DNA from: Mailhella massiliensis
GTDB taxonomy: Bacteria; Desulfobacterota; Desulfovibrionia; Desulfovibrionales; Desulfovibrionaceae
DNA: 64,000 bases
Direction: 5' to 3'
NCBI RefSeq assembly: GCF_900155525.1
Contig: NZ_LT706940.1
Coordinates: forward strand, 119,690-183,689
In this document: piece by piece, positions 34,924-50,896 of the stretch
How the letters are laid out: every line of letters begins with the position of its first letter
How positions within the stretch are numbered: the first letter of the stretch is position 1
The notes under the pieces: generated by a model
Databases searched by the model: none
Told to the model about the DNA's origin: nothing
Seen by the model: the letters and a program-made list of their open reading frames with translations, nothing else
Made by a program: the position numbers and the translations under genes

Positions 34924-36408
34924 ATGAAAGCAAACACCGCCTCCATACGCCCGCATCTTTCCGGCATTCTGTCCGGGCCGCTCCTGTGTTTCATCCTTCT
35001 TGCCTGCCCCGCCCCCGCATCGCTCGGCGAACAGGGCATGAAAAGCCTCGCCGCCATCGCCTGGATCATCATGTGGTGGATGACCGAGGCCTTTCCCCTT
35101 TCCTTCACCGCTCTTTTCGGCATCGTACTCTACGGAATCATGGGCGTTCTGCCCCTCTCCAGAGGCTTCGCCTTCCTCAGCAGCCCCACCTGCATGTTGC
35201 TGCTCGGCTCCATGCTGCTGCTCGGCGCGCTGAAGGACAGCAACCTCATCGAACGCTACACCTACAAAGTGGTGACCTCCGCCTTCGTGGCTCACAGCCC
35301 CACAAGGCTGATGGTTCTGTTCGGCATGGCCGCCGGCCTTCTTTCCGCCATCATGCCGAACATTCCCGTGGCCATTCTCTTCACGTCCATCGCCGTCGCG
35401 CTGGGGAAAAGCATGAGGGCCCGGCCCGGACACCCGCTCATCCGCGCCATGGTGGTCGCAAGCGGCGTCGGCGCTTCCGTAGGCGGCACGGGAACTCCCG
35501 TGGGGGGCGTACCCAATCTTCTCGTCATAGGCATCATCGCCTCTTCCCTGAACTATCAGGTACAGTTCTGGGAATGGTCCGCCTTCGGCATGGCGCTCTG
35601 CATCGCGTGGCTGGCAGCCATGGTGCTCTTCTGCCACATCTTCTTCCTCAGAGGCTGTTCCACAGGCGATTCCTGCTTCAGTGTGGACGTCATCAGCGAA
35701 AGACTGGAAAGTCTCGGTCCGGTGACGATACGCGAAAAGGCCTCCCTCGGCGTGCTCATCGCCGCGCTCCTGCTCTGGTGTCTGGGGCAGCCCATGGCGA
35801 ACCGCTTCGGCATACCCGCTCTGGCAAGGCTTCTCGACGTGTCCACCATCGCCGTGCTCTGCGGCGTCTGCCTGCTCTTCATTCCCACAGGGCGCGACGA
35901 TACGGGCAGAATCACCTTCGTGCTGGACTGGAAAACCGCCCTTGCCTCCATCAACTGGGAAATTCTCATCTTCGTTTCCGGCGTTCTCGCCTTCGGGCAG
36001 GTATGCATCGAAGGCGGCATAGACAAGTGGCTTGCCGGGCTGGTCTCCCCCATGCTCGAAGGGCTTTCGCCTTCCCTCACCTGGCTGGTGCTGCTTGCCG
36101 TCAGCGGCATTCTCTGCCAGTGGGCCAATCCCGCCACCGTCATTTCGCTGCTGGTGCCCACCACGGCGCTCATTGCCGCCCAGAAGGGCATAAACCCCAT
36201 CGTGGCCTGCTTCACCGTGGGCATGGTGGCCAACCTCGCCATCATGTTTCCCTTCTCCTCCCCGCCCATTGCGGCCAGCATTCTCGGTTCGGACGACTAT
36301 GCCTCGCCGAAGGACTTTTTCCGCTTCTCCTTCCCCATGGTGACCGTATGCGTACTGCTGGCATGGGTCATCGGCATGGGATTCGGCCCCGTGGTCTTCC
36401 CTTCCTGA
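34924..36408 (+). CDS. DASS-type (SLC13/CitT-like) anion permease, module B
   Basis: A 494-residue inner-membrane protein with about 12-13 hydrophobic segments. It shows divalent anion:Na+ symporter features: AAIAWIIMWWMTEAFPLSFTALFGIVLYG near residues 40-70 (the family's W-TE-P-TA motif), PNIPVAILFTSIA, GASVGGTGTPVGGVPN resembling the substrate-binding SNT-type loop, and a second half ending in a similar motif (WANPATVISLLVPTTA). A dicarboxylate, sulfonate or similar anion is the expected cargo. As the third gene of the sigma-54 operon it probably imports the substrate of the flavoprotein. Confidence 0.87.
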   Translation: MKANTASIRPHLSGILSGPLLCFILLACPAPASLGEQGMKSLAAIAWIIMWWMTEAFPLSFTALFGIVLYGIMGVLPLSRGFAFLSSPTCMLLLGSMLLLGALKDSNLIERYTYKVVTSAFVAHSPTRLMVLFGMAAGLLSAIMPNIPVAILFTSIAVALGKSMRARPGHPLIRAMVVASGVGASVGGTGTPVGGVPNLLVIGIIASSLNYQVQFWEWSAFGMALCIAWLAAMVLFCHIFFLRGCSTGDSCFSVDVISERLESLGPVTIREKASLGVLIAALLLWCLGQPMANRFGIPALARLLDVSTIAVLCGVCLLFIPTGRDDTGRITFVLDWKTALASINWEILIFVSGVLAFGQVCIEGGIDKWLAGLVSPMLEGLSPSLTWLVLLAVSGILCQWANPATVISLLVPTTALIAAQKGINPIVACFTVGMVANLAIMFPFSSPPIAASILGSDDYASPKDFFRFSFPMVTVCVLLAWVIGMGFGPVVFPS

Positions 36409-36435
36409 TCAGGCTCCGTCCCCTGCCTGCATGAG

Positions 36436-36462
36436 AAAAAGCCCGGCGGTGCCGGGCTTTTT
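36436..36462. terminator. Bidirectional terminator between module B and panF
   Basis: AAAAAGCCCGGC-GGT-GCCGGGCTTTTT is a perfect 12-bp stem with a 3-base loop and runs on both sides, located between convergent genes. Confidence 0.93.
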
Positions 36463-36542
36463 CCTGGTGTTTCAAAAAAATGAACTCTGCGGAACCATCC
36501 GTCTTCTGACAGCGTCGGGGCCGCTGTCATGCCTCGAGGACG

Positions 36543-38018
36543 CTAGTCCTCTTCGCCCCAGAAAAGCTTCGTCACCTCCGGCGGCACGGGAGCACCGCGG
36601 AGGCTGCCCAGCCAGAAGGCGAAAAGCGATATCACACAGGTCGGTACGATGGGATGCACGCCGCCCATGGGAACCTTGAACACGGAAAGCAGCATGAAGG
36701 CCGCCACGCCCGCCGCCATGGACCATACGGCTCCCGTGGCGTTGGCCCGTCTCCAGTACATGCCGAGCACCACGGGCCAGAGGAATACGGCTTCCAGCCC
36801 GCCGAAGGCGAAAAGATTGATCCACACCAGAAGATCCGGGGGATTGAACGAGGCGCAGAACACCAGCACCCCCGCGGCAAGGGTGCAGCAGAAGCTCATG
36901 CGGCCTATCTTTTTTGCCGAAATGCCGGAAACGTCGTTCTTCAGGCGGTAACGGACGTACAGGTCCTTGATGATGGAGGCGGAAACCAGAAGCAGCATGG
37001 TATCCACCGTGGACATGATGGCGGCAAGGGGACCTGCCACGAACACGCCCGCCCAGAACGGCGGCAGAAATTCCAGAATAAGCGAGGGGATGATGAGGTC
37101 GCCGGAGGTGAGGCCGGGCATGACGGCGCGGCCCAGCACGCCCGCAAGATGCATGAAAAGAAGCAGGAAGCCGATGATGAGCGTACCCATGACCATGGCG
37201 TCGTGCATGGACTTGGAATTCTTGTAGCCGAAGCAGCGCTGCGTGGTCTGGGGCAGGCCGAGAATGCCGAGTCCCACCAGTATCCAGAAGGAAAAGAGCA
37301 TGGGCGCGGGAATGGCGCCTCCCGCGCCGGAAGGGGAAATGAGGCCCGGGTCCATGCCTTTCAGCGTCTGGATGCACTGTTCCATGCCGCCCCCCGCCCG
37401 TACCACGGCAAGAAGTATGACCACGGATGCGATGAGCATGACCACGCCCTGCAACGCATCGGTGACGGCCACGGCGCGGAAGCCGCCCACCGCCGTATAG
37501 AGCACCACGGTCACGCCGAAAAGGATGAGCCCCGCTTCATAGGGATATCCCGTCACGGCCTGAAACACGCGCGCCCCGCCGATGAACTGGGCCACCATGG
37601 AAGCGGCGAAGAAAAGCAGGATGGCCGCGGAGCAGAGCACGACCACCGCATCGCTTCTGTACCTTGCGTAAAGAAAATCCGTGATGGTGACGGCGCGGAC
37701 GCGCCTGCCGAGAATGGCGAAGCGTTTGCCGAGCACCCCGAGGGTGAGAAAGGTGGTGGGCACCTGTATCATGGCCAGAAGCACCCAGCCGAGGCCCAGC
37801 TTGTAGGCCACGCCCGGGCCGCCCACGAAGCTGCTCGCGCTCGTGTAGCTGGCAATGATGGTCATGGCGAGCACAAAGCCGCCCATGGTGCGGCCGCCGA
37901 TGAAATATTCCTCGATGAAGCCCCGGCCCGCGCCCTTTTTCGACTGGCGCTGCGCCCAGAGCGCGAGCAGAAGCGTGAGCGCAAGGTAGCCTATGAGGGG
38001 TATGAGCGCGATGTTCAT
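36543..38018 (-). CDS. panF: Sodium/pantothenate symporter
   Basis: A 491-residue solute:sodium symporter with 12-13 helices. Strong PanF-like features: EEYFIGGRTMGGFVLAMTIIASYTSASSFVGGPG near residues 36-70, FRAVAVTDALQGVVM, LPQTTQRCFGYKNSKSMHDAM and GPLAAIMSTVDTMLLLVSASIIKDLY. It imports pantothenate with Na+. Its ATG overlaps the stop of the upstream YhdT-type gene (ATGA), the arrangement known from enterobacterial yhdT-panF. GGGGAG lies upstream. It gains weight because panD nearby appears broken, which would make pantothenate uptake important. Confidence 0.93.
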   Translation of the reverse strand: MNIALIPLIGYLALTLLLALWAQRQSKKGAGRGFIEEYFIGGRTMGGFVLAMTIIASYTSASSFVGGPGVAYKLGLGWVLLAMIQVPTTFLTLGVLGKRFAILGRRVRAVTITDFLYARYRSDAVVVLCSAAILLFFAASMVAQFIGGARVFQAVTGYPYEAGLILFGVTVVLYTAVGGFRAVAVTDALQGVVMLIASVVILLAVVRAGGGMEQCIQTLKGMDPGLISPSGAGGAIPAPMLFSFWILVGLGILGLPQTTQRCFGYKNSKSMHDAMVMGTLIIGFLLLFMHLAGVLGRAVMPGLTSGDLIIPSLILEFLPPFWAGVFVAGPLAAIMSTVDTMLLLVSASIIKDLYVRYRLKNDVSGISAKKIGRMSFCCTLAAGVLVFCASFNPPDLLVWINLFAFGGLEAVFLWPVVLGMYWRRANATGAVWSMAAGVAAFMLLSVFKVPMGGVHPIVPTCVISLFAFWLGSLRGAPVPPEVTKLFWGEED

Positions 38019-38290
38019 GATTTCTCCCCGTCTCGGCCGTCCTCAGGCTCATCCAGAGGAATGTCGGCAAAAAAGCGCCGCACCACCCCCCACAGAATGA
38101 GGGTCATGACGGGGTACCCCAGCACGCAGCTGTAGAAAAACCACTCCGGCAGTCCGAACACATACCCGTAGTCCTCCACGTCGCCGGAGCCGAGGCCGAA
38201 GGCGAACGCCGTCCACCATACGAAAAAGAACACATAAAGACCCAGCGTGATGAGAGCCTCACGGTCGGCCTGTCTGAAAGCCTTTCGCAT
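38015..38290 (-). CDS. yhdT: YhdT-family (DUF997) small membrane protein
   Basis: A 91-residue protein with two hydrophobic segments (residues 14-35 and 50-72) and an acidic tail. FVWWTAFAFGLG and YGYVFGLPEWFFYSCVLGYP are typical of YhdT, usually encoded directly upstream of panF. GGGGGA precedes the ATG at 38290. Its role in pantothenate uptake is not established; it is probably a small partner of PanF. A run of ten G (minus strand) lies about 80 bases upstream of the start. Confidence 0.85.
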   Translation of the reverse strand: MRKAFRQADREALITLGLYVFFFVWWTAFAFGLGSGDVEDYGYVFGLPEWFFYSCVLGYPVMTLILWGVVRRFFADIPLDEPEDGRDGEKS

Positions 38291-38370
38291 ATATTCCCCC
38301 TGAATGTTCGACGCGGAGTTTTCCCCGCTTTCCGAGGCACGGCCGTTTCCCGGTGACGCCGGGAGCGCCG

Positions 38371-38380
38371 CCCCCCCCCC
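38371..38380. repeat. Homopolymer C10 (G10 on minus strand) upstream of yhdT-panF
   Basis: Ten uninterrupted C in an otherwise non-coding 178-base gap between the BASS remnant and yhdT. On the transcribed (minus) strand it is G10, about 80 bases upstream of the yhdT start, where a promoter or leader would lie. Long poly-G tracts are prone to slippage. No clear -35/-10 elements flank it. Confidence 0.6.
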
Positions 38381-38468
38381 GCGGGACCGCAAAAGCACGC
38401 CGTAACGACGAAACGGCCGCCCCGCATCGTGAAGCAGCCTGCAATTCCCTTTCCGGTCAATATAACCC

Positions 38469-39218
38469 TCAAGCGCGCGGGGCCTCAACTTCTTTCTGCC
38501 GCCCCTTCCGCCGCCAGGAGGCAAAGAGCGAGCCCGTAATGTTCTGCCATGCGCTGAAGAGCGCGCCGGGGAGCGTGGCGAGGGGATTGGCGGCAAAGTT
38601 GGCGGCAGCCAGCGCCACGGCAAGGCCGCTGTTCTGCATGCCCACTTCTATGGAAACGGCCGTGGCCTTCGCATAATCCAGGCCGAGCAGTCTTGCCGCC
38701 GCAAGGCCGAGAAAAAGTCCCGCTCCGTTGTGCAGAAATACAAGAAGCAGCACAAGCGCCCCGCTGCCCGCAATTTTTTCCGCATTCACGGCAATGATGC
38801 CGCTCACGATGAGCACGATTCCCGCCACGGAGACAAGCGGGCATACGTCGGCCACGGCATCCACCGCCCTGCCTGCGCTGCGGCGCAGCGCAATGCCTGC
38901 GGCCACGGGCAGAAGCACGATCTTCACCACCGAAAGCACCATGGCCCAGAAGGAAACCTGCACCCAGCTTCCCGCAAGAACATACACGAGCATGGGCGTA
39001 AGAAGAGGCGCAATGAGCGTGGAAGCTGCGGTCATGCCCACGGAAAGCGCCACATCGCCGCAGGCGAGGTAGGTGATCACGTTGCTGGCCGTACCCCCCG
39101 GGCAGCACCCCACCAGAATGACGCCGAGCGCAAGATCGGCGGGCAGGTCGAAGAACCGGGCCAGGGCATAGGCCAGAAGCGGCATGACGGTGAACTGCGC
39201 CGCACAGCCTGCAGCAAG
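38469..39218 (-). pseudogene. N-terminally truncated bile acid:Na+ symporter (BASS/PanS-like)
   Basis: The frame encodes about 250 residues clearly of the BASS family: [53 protein letters not shown] and [20 protein letters not shown] proteins normally have about 310-330 residues, so roughly 70-80 N-terminal residues (two or three helices) are missing. At about 39219-39230 the sequence changes directly into panD in another frame. Only an internal ATG at 39185 could start translation and no convincing ribosome site precedes it. BASS members include PanS, a pantothenate-precursor transporter, which would fit this location. Likely a deletion remnant, or possibly an assembly join. Confidence 0.75.
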
Positions 39219-39219
39219 G

Positions 39220-39450
39220 GCGCGCGGCGGCGCCGTTCAGGCATATCACGCCGCTGTCTCTTTTCCCGGTGATGGCATAGGTCTCCAGACGGAGCCCGTT
39301 GTTCACGTCCACCACCTGCACCTGCTCATATTCATGAATGCAGGCTTCCTCCATGAGACGTTCATCGATGGTGATGCTGCCCACATAATCCAGCTCGGCC
39401 TGCGTGACCACGGCGCGGTGTATCTTGCCCTTCAGCATGTTGAGAAGCAT
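39220..39450 (-). pseudogene. panD: Aspartate 1-decarboxylase, 3'-truncated
   Basis: PanD makes beta-alanine from aspartate. Codons 1-77 are intact: K9, the self-cleavage site G24-S25 (YVGSITID), R54, T57, Y58 and N72 (CLNGAAAR) all sit at the positions known from the E. coli enzyme. Right after NGAAAR the similarity ends and the frame runs through the BASS remnant out of frame to a stop at 38485. About 45 of the usual 120-126 residues are lost, including later barrel strands, so the product is probably inactive. It starts 3 bases after panC ends. The breakpoint contains a GC-only stretch (GCCGCCGCGCGC) that could have served as microhomology. Confidence 0.85.
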
Positions 39451-39453
39451 GGG

Positions 39454-40299
39454 CTACCCTTCAAAGGAAAAGTTGTCGATAAGGCGCGTTTTGCCGATAT
39501 ACACGGCCATGGCGCAGAGCACCGGGCCTTCCGCACGCGTCACGGGCTGCATGGAAAAGGCGTCCACCATATCCACATAGTCGATGCGGGCCAGAGATTC
39601 CTTTTCTATGCAGGCCTTCATGGCCGAAACTACGGCCGAGGCATCCCTCTCGCCTTTTTCCATCATCTCCCGGCCGAGGAACACCGCACGGCTCAGCACC
39701 AGGGCCGCCTTGCGCTCCTCCGCGCTCAGGTAGGTATTGCGGGAGCTTTTTGCCAGACCGTCCGCCTCGCGCACGATGGGGCAGCCTACGATTTCCACAT
39801 CGAAATTGAGATCGCGCACCATGCGGCGGATGACGGCGAGCTGCTGCGCGTCCTTCTGTCCGAAATAGGCTCTGTCGGGGGAAACGATGTGGAAAAGCTT
39901 GCTCACCACCGTACACACCCCGCGGAAGTGAATGGGACGCGTTCTGCCGCAGAGCGTTTCGCTGAGCGAACGCATGTCCACCCAGGTGCAGAAATCCGGC
40001 GCGTACATGTCTTCGGGCCGGGGATGAAAAATCAGATGTGCTCCGGCCTCTTCACAAAGACGCGCGTCGGCCTCGATGTCGCGCGGGTAGCTTGCCAGAT
40101 CCTCTCCGGGGCCGAACTGGGTGGGATTCACGAAATCGCTGACCACCACGCGGTCGTTTTCCGCAACGGCGCGCACGATGAGGCTCTTATGCCCTTCATG
40201 CAGGTATCCCATGGTCGGCACGAGCCCCACGCTCAGCCCCTCGCGCCGCCAGGCCTTTACCCGGGCACGCACCTCATCCACGGAAGAAACAATGTTCAT
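39454..40299 (-). CDS. panC: Pantothenate synthetase
   Basis: A 281-residue cytoplasmic enzyme joining pantoate and beta-alanine with ATP. Visible signatures: GLVPTMGYLHEGHKSLI (the HIGH-like ATP site), FVNPTQFGPGEDLASYPR, YFGQKDAQQLAVIRRM, and READGLAKSSRNTYL (the KMSKS-equivalent loop). Length is normal. AAGGAG lies before the ATG at 40299. It is first in the order panC, panD remnant, BASS remnant. It remains intact although the beta-alanine source next to it is broken. Confidence 0.97.
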   Translation of the reverse strand: MNIVSSVDEVRARVKAWRREGLSVGLVPTMGYLHEGHKSLIVRAVAENDRVVVSDFVNPTQFGPGEDLASYPRDIEADARLCEEAGAHLIFHPRPEDMYAPDFCTWVDMRSLSETLCGRTRPIHFRGVCTVVSKLFHIVSPDRAYFGQKDAQQLAVIRRMVRDLNFDVEIVGCPIVREADGLAKSSRNTYLSAEERKAALVLSRAVFLGREMMEKGERDASAVVSAMKACIEKESLARIDYVDMVDAFSMQPVTRAEGPVLCAMAVYIGKTRLIDNFSFEG

Positions 40300-40608
40300 G
40301 ACTGTCGCTCCTTGCCATGGGCCATGACTTCTACAGGCTCACGGACGAATATTTTAACCATGTTCATGCCGTCTGAAACAGCCTTCACGGTTCAGACAAA
40401 AAGGCGGAACACGTTGCAACAGGGGCGCATTCTAGTCAAAAAGGAGAAAGAGAGCAACAAAGTGACTCTACTCACGACGAAGAGGCGTCTTTTTCGTAAA
40501 TAGAAAGAGAAGACTATAACGAAAATACGTCTTTTTCTCTTCAAAAGACGTACAAGATATGACAGGGGAGCCCCTTCGCTTTGCAGGCAACACGCTCCGT
40601 CATGCAAA
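40300..40608. promoter_or_regulatory. panC upstream region with 10-bp inverted repeat
   Basis: About 300 bases without a gene. A perfect inverted repeat, TACGTCTTTT-TCTCTTC-AAAAGACGTA, lies at 40526-40552. A further half-site, GCGTCTTTTT, lies 42 bases away at 40485. It may be an operator or an RNA hairpin. The panC promoter should lie between about 40320 and 40420 on the minus strand, where an AT-rich TTAAAATATT (complement of 40350-40359) could be part of a -10. Confidence 0.4.
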
Positions 40609-40635
40609 GCGGCCGGCCCCTTTCGGAGCCGGCCG
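40609..40635 (-). terminator. Hairpin after the autotransporter gene
   Basis: GCGGCCGGC and GCCGGCCGC form a 9-bp stem; on the minus strand TTTGC follows. It is about 45 bases past the autotransporter stop. A weaker TCCGCC/GGCGGA hairpin lies at 40661-40676. Confidence 0.6.
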
Positions 40636-40680
40636 CCGCCGGATGTTGAACCGTTTCTCCGCCTTCAGGCGGAAAAAGCC

Positions 40681-44796
<4,116 letters not shown>

Positions 44797-45702
44797 CTTC
44801 TCCTCCAAGAATTACATGTTTCAGGTACTCTCCCCGTGAGGGGCTTCCCGTCCGCCGCCATGCCCTGCCGGATCGCCGCGGGGGCTTGAAACCCGCGCCG
44901 TCCCTGCCCGGCGACAAGCCTTCGATTATTGTTTGCGTTTTCACAAAAATGTACGTCCGCCATATTCAAAACGTACATGAACCGAAGGCCCCCGCATGAC
45001 GATATTTTCCTGTGCCGCAACAATTTGCGGCACTTCGGACCCTTTTCATCGACTTCTCATTAAAAAAATGAATCATAAAAAAATACAATATGTGAAAAAG
45101 CCTTTTCAGCATAGCACGCCGGTGAACCATGTCAACAACAGGCCACAATAAACCATACATTTACAACTATATATTTTTTATTATAAAAAATATCGATATC
45201 AAAAACAATAAATACAACAATATTTTTTACCACTTTTCAACAAAAAAAATTATCAGTACAGGCTGATGATGTTTTCATACAAATTAAAATATAAAAAAAA
45301 CTGCATTGGTAAAAAACATTTTTATCATAAATTAATATACCGTTACATGAAATGATAAAAAAAGCTCAATCATCGTCTTCTTTTCCTTTTCCCCTGCGCG
45401 AATCCTCCGGGATGTTCCTTCCTGCACAAATGCCACCGCGCGTCGCGCTTAAAAGACCCTGTCCCTTCCGCATTCCCGTTTCCGGGCAAAACCAAGAGAG
45501 ACCGGCAGACTCCCTCCTGAGGAAAAATACTCCGCCGGGATGAAGCGTTCCGTACATGCCGCCCCAAAGCTCTCCCGGAAGCGCACTTTGCCGCACTCCG
45601 TTGCGGCTTTTGAAAAAACGCTATATATCATACCGGTTCCGGCAGGAAAAATTTCCGCCGTTTTCCCCCTTTCCGAAGAAGGGCCCGCAGGATGGAATTC
45701 CC
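44797..45702. promoter_or_regulatory. Long divergent, very AT-rich intergenic region
   Basis: About 900 bases without a convincing gene, between the autotransporter (minus) and the Kef-type gene (plus). From 45040 to 45370 the sequence is extremely AT-rich, unlike anything else here, and could be a site for H-NS-like silencing or a remnant of transferred DNA. Two symmetrical sites lie closer to the autotransporter: ATGTACGT/ACGTACAT at 44949-44956 and 44971-44978, and a hairpin GTGCCGCAA-CAAT-TTGCGGCAC at 45012-45033. These may control the autotransporter. The segment 45400-45700 returns to normal GC and shows no clear gene. Confidence 0.5.
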
Positions 45703-50098: not shown

Positions 50099-50896
50099 AT
50101 GTCTGAACAACTTCTCCTTGCCGACATCGGCAATACCTGCATCAAGCTCGTCTTTGCCCGCCCCGACGCGCTGGAGGCCGCCTATTCCCTGCCCACCAGG
50201 GCGCAGCACACGGCCGACAGCCTGGGCCTCTCCCTCATGCAGCTCCTTTCCCTGCAGGGCCTCGGCGCCGCGGACATCACCGCCTGCGTGGTCTGTTCCG
50301 TGGTACCCGACGTGAACACCCTGTTTCAGGAAGCCTGCCGCAGATATCTGAAAAAGACGCCCCTCTCCTTCCCCGGCGACTTTGCCGTCGACCTCGTCAA
50401 CGGTTATGATCAGCCGCAGGAAGTAGGGGCCGACCGGCTGCTCGCGGCCTTTGCGGCAAGAAAGCTCTTTCCCGAAACGCCCTCCCTCATTTCCGTGGAT
50501 TTCGGCACCGCCACCACCTTCGACTGCGTTTCCGGCAACACCTATCTCGGCGGACTCATCTGCCCGGGGCTCTTTTCCTCCCGCAACGCGCTTGCGGCCA
50601 ACACCGCCAAGCTCCCGCGCATTTCTCTGGAAATGACGGATTCCCATGTAAGCATAGGAAAGAGCACCATCACCAGCATGAATCACGGTTTTCTCTTCGG
50701 CTTCGCCGCCATGACGGAAGGCCTGTGCGAACGCCTGAAGGAAGAGCTGCCCGGCCCCACCCTCGTTGTGGGCACGGGCGGCGCGGCGCATGACCTTGCA
50801 AGGATATGCCGGGCCTTCGACGTCGTTCGGCCCGACCTCATTCTGGAAGGACTCCGGCTGCTCTGGGCCGGAGGCGGGGCGCGCGCTTCACTCTAG
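50099..50896 (+). CDS. coaX: Type III pantothenate kinase
   Basis: A 265-residue cytoplasmic enzyme phosphorylating pantothenate, the first step of CoA synthesis. Family motifs: LLADIGNTCIKL near residues 5-16 (phosphate-binding), VCSVVPDVN, GADRLLAAFAAR, and VDFGTATTFDCV with LGGLICPG. The usual length is 250-270. ATG at 50099 is chosen because it puts the DIGNT motif in the normal place; a TTG at 50069 would add ten residues. There is no good Shine-Dalgarno for either. Together with panF and panC it shows that CoA synthesis from pantothenate is intact. Confidence 0.93.
   Translation: MSEQLLLADIGNTCIKLVFARPDALEAAYSLPTRAQHTADSLGLSLMQLLSLQGLGAADITACVVCSVVPDVNTLFQEACRRYLKKTPLSFPGDFAVDLVNGYDQPQEVGADRLLAAFAARKLFPETPSLISVDFGTATTFDCVSGNTYLGGLICPGLFSSRNALAANTAKLPRISLEMTDSHVSIGKSTITSMNHGFLFGFAAMTEGLCERLKEELPGPTLVVGTGGAAHDLARICRAFDVVRPDLILEGLRLLWAGGGARASL

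Follow-up and report, generated by a model that had tools for sequence, protein, structure and literature searches.

What supplies vitamin B5 to a bacterium whose panD gene runs, without a gap and out of frame, into a transporter gene beside an intact panC? This arrangement lies in a 64,000-nucleotide stretch of Mailhella massiliensis contig NZ_LT706940.1 (hereafter the window), part of a 28-contig draft genome (G000; 99.37% complete, 2.43% contamination), and a literature search found no paper on this particular locus. The original prediction had read the locus as an out-of-frame fusion, and this reading held: codons 1-77 of panD abut, gaplessly and in a different frame, a BASS-family gene (panS) lacking approximately its first 66 codons, with residues G24, S25, K9, R54, T57, Y58, and N72 all present in the panD fragment (Table 1). 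The proposed common break point was also recovered, in a GC-only run that by eye spans 39218-39235 and within which the position of the join is ambiguous over 39219-39227. The genes taken to be intact (panC, yhdT, panF, and coaX) were matched over the full length of their families, PanF at nearly twice the curated TIGR02119 cut-off of 328.05 bits.

Table 1. Features of the panC-panD-panS-yhdT-panF locus and of coaX, in window coordinates
Feature	Position	Strand	Basis or remark
panC, pantoate--beta-alanine ligase, intact	39454..40299	-	TIGR00018 344 bits, 1-277 of 281 aa; Pantoate_ligase 369.6 bits
panD codons 1-77, 3' part gone	39220..39450	-	Asp_decarbox 1-79 of 115; ~52 residues short of relatives
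Deletion join, CCGCGCGC(C)	39219..39227	-	Read against seven intact loci; fits panD Ala-Ala-Arg and panS Pro
panS (BASS family) minus ~first 66 codons	38469..39227	-	SBF and PanS profiles; alignment to intact panS; first in-frame ATG 39185
Fused 321-codon frame, PanD 1-77 plus out-of-frame panS	38485..39450	-	Chance open frame
yhdT (DUF997), intact	38015..38290	-	PF06196 109.4 bits, 1-76 of 77
panF, sodium/pantothenate symporter, intact	36543..38018	-	TIGR02119 641.7 bits, 3-468 of 471
coaX, type III pantothenate kinase (matched region)	50111..50734	+	PF03309 196.1 bits, 1-205 of 205; G000:C16:169800-170423

Profile searches located the missing parts. The 321-aa open reading frame that starts as PanD matched the Pfam family Asp_decarbox over residues 1-79 (profile positions 1-79 of 115) and no family past residue 79, and the 238-aa frame at 38469-39185 (minus strand), which is the BASS protein and is read in another frame, entered the SBF profile at position 41 of 191. 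The NCBIfam panD profile covered the fragment over 1-78 of 126 (107.6 bits; cut-off 106) and the PanS profile covered the 238-aa frame over 74-296 of 299 (215.3 bits; cut-off 400). Across the whole genome, profile searching returned a single match to PF02261 (1-79 of 115) and a single match to NF047939 (60-296 of 299), both partial; no further copy of panD was found, and neither the complete panD and panS of a working operon nor the complete chain of a working aspartate 1-decarboxylase is present among these matches. All 18 listed PanD positions up to residue 76 are kept, and the ~52 residues lost include six positions, from 82 to 112, that are invariant or nearly so. PanS lacks residues 1-66, or 1-80 if translation restarts at 39185; this part includes the counterparts of Ile47 and Met48 in the panel domain of ASBT-NM and, judging from the ten-helix fold, would comprise the first two membrane helices.

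Comparison with relatives supports the proposal that a single deletion broke both genes. Intact panC, panD, and panS lie side by side in six congeners (G005, G010, G013, G014, G016, and G018) and in a member of another genus (G024), with yhdT-panF downstream in five of the six congeners and not found in G005 or G024 within the stretch examined. The two points joined in G000 are separated by 425-455 bp in these intact relatives, and by 446 bp in G010, whose panC (88.6%) is the closest among loci in which both genes are intact; gene order on both sides of the join is that of the relatives. Read on the minus strand from 39227 to 39219, the bases of the join, CCGCGCGC(C), fall within Ala-Ala-Arg of panD and Pro-Arg-Ala of panS. 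Of these residues, the panD motif and the panS proline are conserved in 7/7 intact loci, and the next two panS residues are variable. The join thus looks as expected for the trace of a deletion between short identical stretches, with a homology that would be 8 or 9 bases long.

Several other features of the region were recorded. Scans of 36300-41000 returned two promoter-like sites (1.0 expected) and 12 terminator-like sites (5.7 expected), from which no conclusion was drawn, and 38300-40400 had no match in the plasmid collection. A run of ten C (38371-38380) lies between the panS stop and yhdT. A 46-base (CT)n run at 44658-44704 falls, by eye, in the signal-peptide region of a minus-strand gene (40681-44808) whose 1375-aa product carries a Pfam Autotransporter domain (168.4 bits); this run is a candidate on/off switch acting through slipped-strand change of repeat number.

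The original prediction treated the transporter apart from panD, and here it needs correction: the BASS gene belongs to panD's own pathway. In PMC6593275, a panD-panC-panS operon carried by 35 auxotrophs of the Bacillota, together with five prototrophs, is described as a complete pantoate salvage pathway. The Apt variant given there for Clostridiales, Tissierellales, and Veillonellales resembles the present locus in having panC, panD, and panS adjacent without panB; it differs in that our lineage lies outside the Bacillota, the order is panC-panD-panS, the genes are linked to yhdT-panF, and, in G000, panD and panS are broken. Among the matches listed for Bacillota, nine of the best 80 BASS loci have panS with panC and panD as neighbours within the stretch examined, and eight of these rank in the top nine; eight of the nine genomes had no panB match, Veillonella ratti being the one with panB, and a tenth genome searched (L038, with panS at a locus without panC or panD) had no panB match either. 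In the PanC tree the cassette PanC of the genus was nearest, among the rows included, to the Bacillota cassette PanC (support 94/85). We claim no direction of PanC transfer, as the PanC of G006, G017, and G030 is also near and 10 of the 30 inner branches are unresolved; an interpretation of the congener panB-panC group as simply the native form was dropped because only one of its three members (G011) has its PanC in the other large clade. Taken by analogy, the locus looks like a pantoate-salvage operon of the Bacillota kind that was the ancestral state in the genus.

The substrate of PanS can be approached through its relatives. NF047939 scored 244-268 bits in seven congeners, and its cut-off of 400 was reached by none of the 19 genus genomes and none of the 14 controls, which is why pantoate import by PanS is inferred. 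The closest known transporters are ASBT-NM (3zux) and the PanS of Salmonella. The PanS of G018 aligns with ASBT-NM over 6-310 of 322 positions (282.7 bits), and a comparison by eye indicated that congener PanS keeps the counterparts of ASBT-NM T112, A113, N265, G267, and N295; it differs in having Gln as the counterpart of H294, and the G000 protein differs further in lacking residues 1-66. According to PMC10645422, ASBT-NM binds pantoate, and binding of ketopantoate or pantothenate was not seen in that assay. Of the seven congeners with panD, five had no match to the PanE family (PF08546), as would be expected if PanS takes in pantoate rather than ketopantoate. Against this, a PanE-family gene is present in G005, G009, and G000, in G000 (TIGR00745 at 282.6 bits) despite the absence of a panB match. 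A further PanS-like gene was seen at G002:C58:2872-3747 (L174; 265.1 bits), in a genome without a panC, panD, or panB match.

The distribution of panB bears on what the organism could make before the deletion. PF02548 was matched neither in G000 nor in the panD-bearing congeners, seven in all (the six intact ones plus G009), so that pantoate could not be made in G000 even before the deletion. Within the genus, panB was found in three of 19 genomes (G006, G011, and G017; L166, L167, and L164), all with panC and no panD match, a class with panB and panC and without panD that is also listed in PMC6593275. Of the 11 genus genomes whose panC exceeds the cut-off, three therefore have panB without panD and eight have panD without panB (Fisher p = 0.006, with kinship ignored and the below-cut-off panC match of G015 left out). 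Four genomes (G005, G006, G010, and G014) are 69-87% complete, and completeness is below 90% in three of the seven that carry panD; G018, assembled as a single contig, conforms to the pattern of the other panD-bearing congeners. The exclusion fails outside the genus, where panB and panD occur together in genomes elsewhere in the family and order; G024 and Veillonella ratti have both the cassette and panB, which shows that a genome can carry the cassette without having lost panB. In an order-mate, a PF02261 match at G050:C109:9208-9414 ends at 73 of 115 in a 72-aa frame, representing either a contig end or a broken panD. These results divide the phenotype originally predicted, loss of beta-alanine synthesis with dependence on pantothenate or beta-alanine. 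The loss itself remains probable, since no second panD and no PLP-type aspartate decarboxylase (PF00282) was found in G000, the latter having no match in the 11 of 18 congeners examined either. Rescue by beta-alanine does not follow: with no panB found and PanS broken, beta-alanine alone should not restore growth, and pantothenate taken up through PanF should.

In the nearest congener (G009), which the original prediction did not consider, panD and panS are also being lost, but by a different route. Its panD frame is full length (L158:1963-2370) and carries K9R, Y22H, R54S, and T57A at four positions that are identical in 38/38 other full-length PanD aligned (of the 41 loci, L038 yielded no panD, and the G000 fragment was treated separately); the protein still scores 142.9 bits against the panD cut-off of 106. 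In E. coli PanD, as described in PMC3975893, Thr57 is needed for activation and Tyr22 is not, and Lys9 and Arg54 touch the bound dicarboxylate. The panS of G009 (L158, ~2376-2790) is a many-gapped remnant with changes spread evenly over codon positions (18/19/18), the pattern of neutral decay. Corresponding counts on the G009 branch were 4/3/29 for panC, 8/3/49 for panF, and 5/3/8 for panD; by Fisher tests panC did not differ from panF (p = 1.0), differed from panS (p = 1.2e-5), and differed weakly from panD (p = 0.044). By sequence, then, the functions of PanD and PanS appear to have been lost in two lineages through different events, and in G009 PanC appears, on small counts, to have been kept without its partners.

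Branch counts for G000 were made against G010 as outgroup and G009 as nearest congener (panC 93%, panF 94%), with 70 three-way-different columns set aside. Over codon positions 1/2/3, panC had 8/4/34 changes, panF 12/6/49, yhdT 0/6/10, panD codons 1-77 3/0/8, and the part of panS still present in G009 5/1/12, and the dN of the panD and panS fragments was within the range of intact pairs. With no accelerated protein change in the fragments, the deletion looks recent: for most of the branch they would have evolved like working genes, and the deletion in G000 looks either recent or private to the sequenced culture.

The latter option, a real deletion confined to the sequenced isolate or population (arising, for example, during growth on rich medium) and not a trait of the species, is one that we regard as quite possible while leaning against it. 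The codon-position changes and dN that make both fragments look like working genes are what it would predict, and one genome per species was compared; against it, the loss of the same two genes in G009 indicates that the relaxed need is not limited to one culture. The count for panS (5/1/12), in a frame free of stops, could be taken to mean that one product still functions, whether a PanS whose translation restarts at 39185 or the fused 321-codon frame. This we judge highly improbable, as the restart would forfeit ~80 residues, the Ile47 and Met48 counterparts among them, the fused tail has no family match, and a recent deletion would leave the same pattern of changes. That the assembly dropped ~450 bp and the real strain has both genes intact also seems very unlikely. 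The missing parts are exactly the content of the intact locus, and scaffold gaps do exist in this draft, where contig C21 has N beside a repeated stretch (L169; G000:C21:173500-177000, an open reading frame with X between two copies of one stretch, either a scaffold gap or a short duplication). The window, however, contains zero N, a collapse requires a long repeat whereas the stretch shared at the join is at most ~9 bases, gene order flanking the join matches the relatives, and the missing PanD and PanS pieces were matched nowhere else in G000, on no other contig, in a search run without a positive control.

Another reading concerns what remains rather than what was lost: PanC may be fed by other carriers of pantoate and beta-alanine, or may have another role, so that what is left of the operon would be a lasting PanC-only arrangement. 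Such a class, the Apt variant with PanC only and an unknown beta-alanine source, is listed in PMC6593275 and is the state that G000 and G009 appear to have reached, the difference being that panD and panS remnants still lie beside panC here. The panS of G009 has decayed neutrally, yet its panC has changed in the manner of panF, as this reading would expect; the counts are small, and the panD of G009 may have failed late. We hold the reading to be doubtful. Its stronger form, in which PanC is kept in the genus by purifying selection after the loss of PanS and PanD and with no PanB, receiving both substrates through unrecognised carriers or serving a second role, strikes us as rather unlikely. 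If true, G000 and G009 would have settled separately into a PanC-only state that lasts, rather than showing an operon on its way out.

The reading that we consider probable remains that a pantoate-salvage operon was broken by one deletion of ~0.43-0.46 kb, with loss of the inputs to PanC and a need for pantothenate through PanF. In the intact panC-panD-panS-yhdT-panF operon, PanS would import pantoate, PanD would make beta-alanine from aspartate, PanC would join the two, and PanF would bring in ready pantothenate, there being no PanB to supply ketopantoate. In G000, a deletion between short GC-rich identical stretches would have taken ~52 codons from the 3' end of panD and ~66 from the 5' end of panS. 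PanD would then stop partway through its fold and PanS would lack its first two membrane helices, so that PanC would have neither input; the route left to CoA would be uptake by PanF followed by CoaX.

This bacterium thus probably depends on import for its vitamin B5, and ordinary reductive evolution is the most likely account of the event, in an operon of a vitamin-salvage type already known. Two features deserve notice: panB and panD exclude each other among the panC-bearing genomes of the genus, and PanC persists. The finding places a pantoate-salvage operon outside the Bacillota orders named in PMC6593275 and catches it in the course of being dismantled by two routes. With panB and panD split among relatives, exchange of pantoate and beta-alanine between them becomes directly testable, and a genome that bears panC may still be that of a strict vitamin B5 auxotroph.
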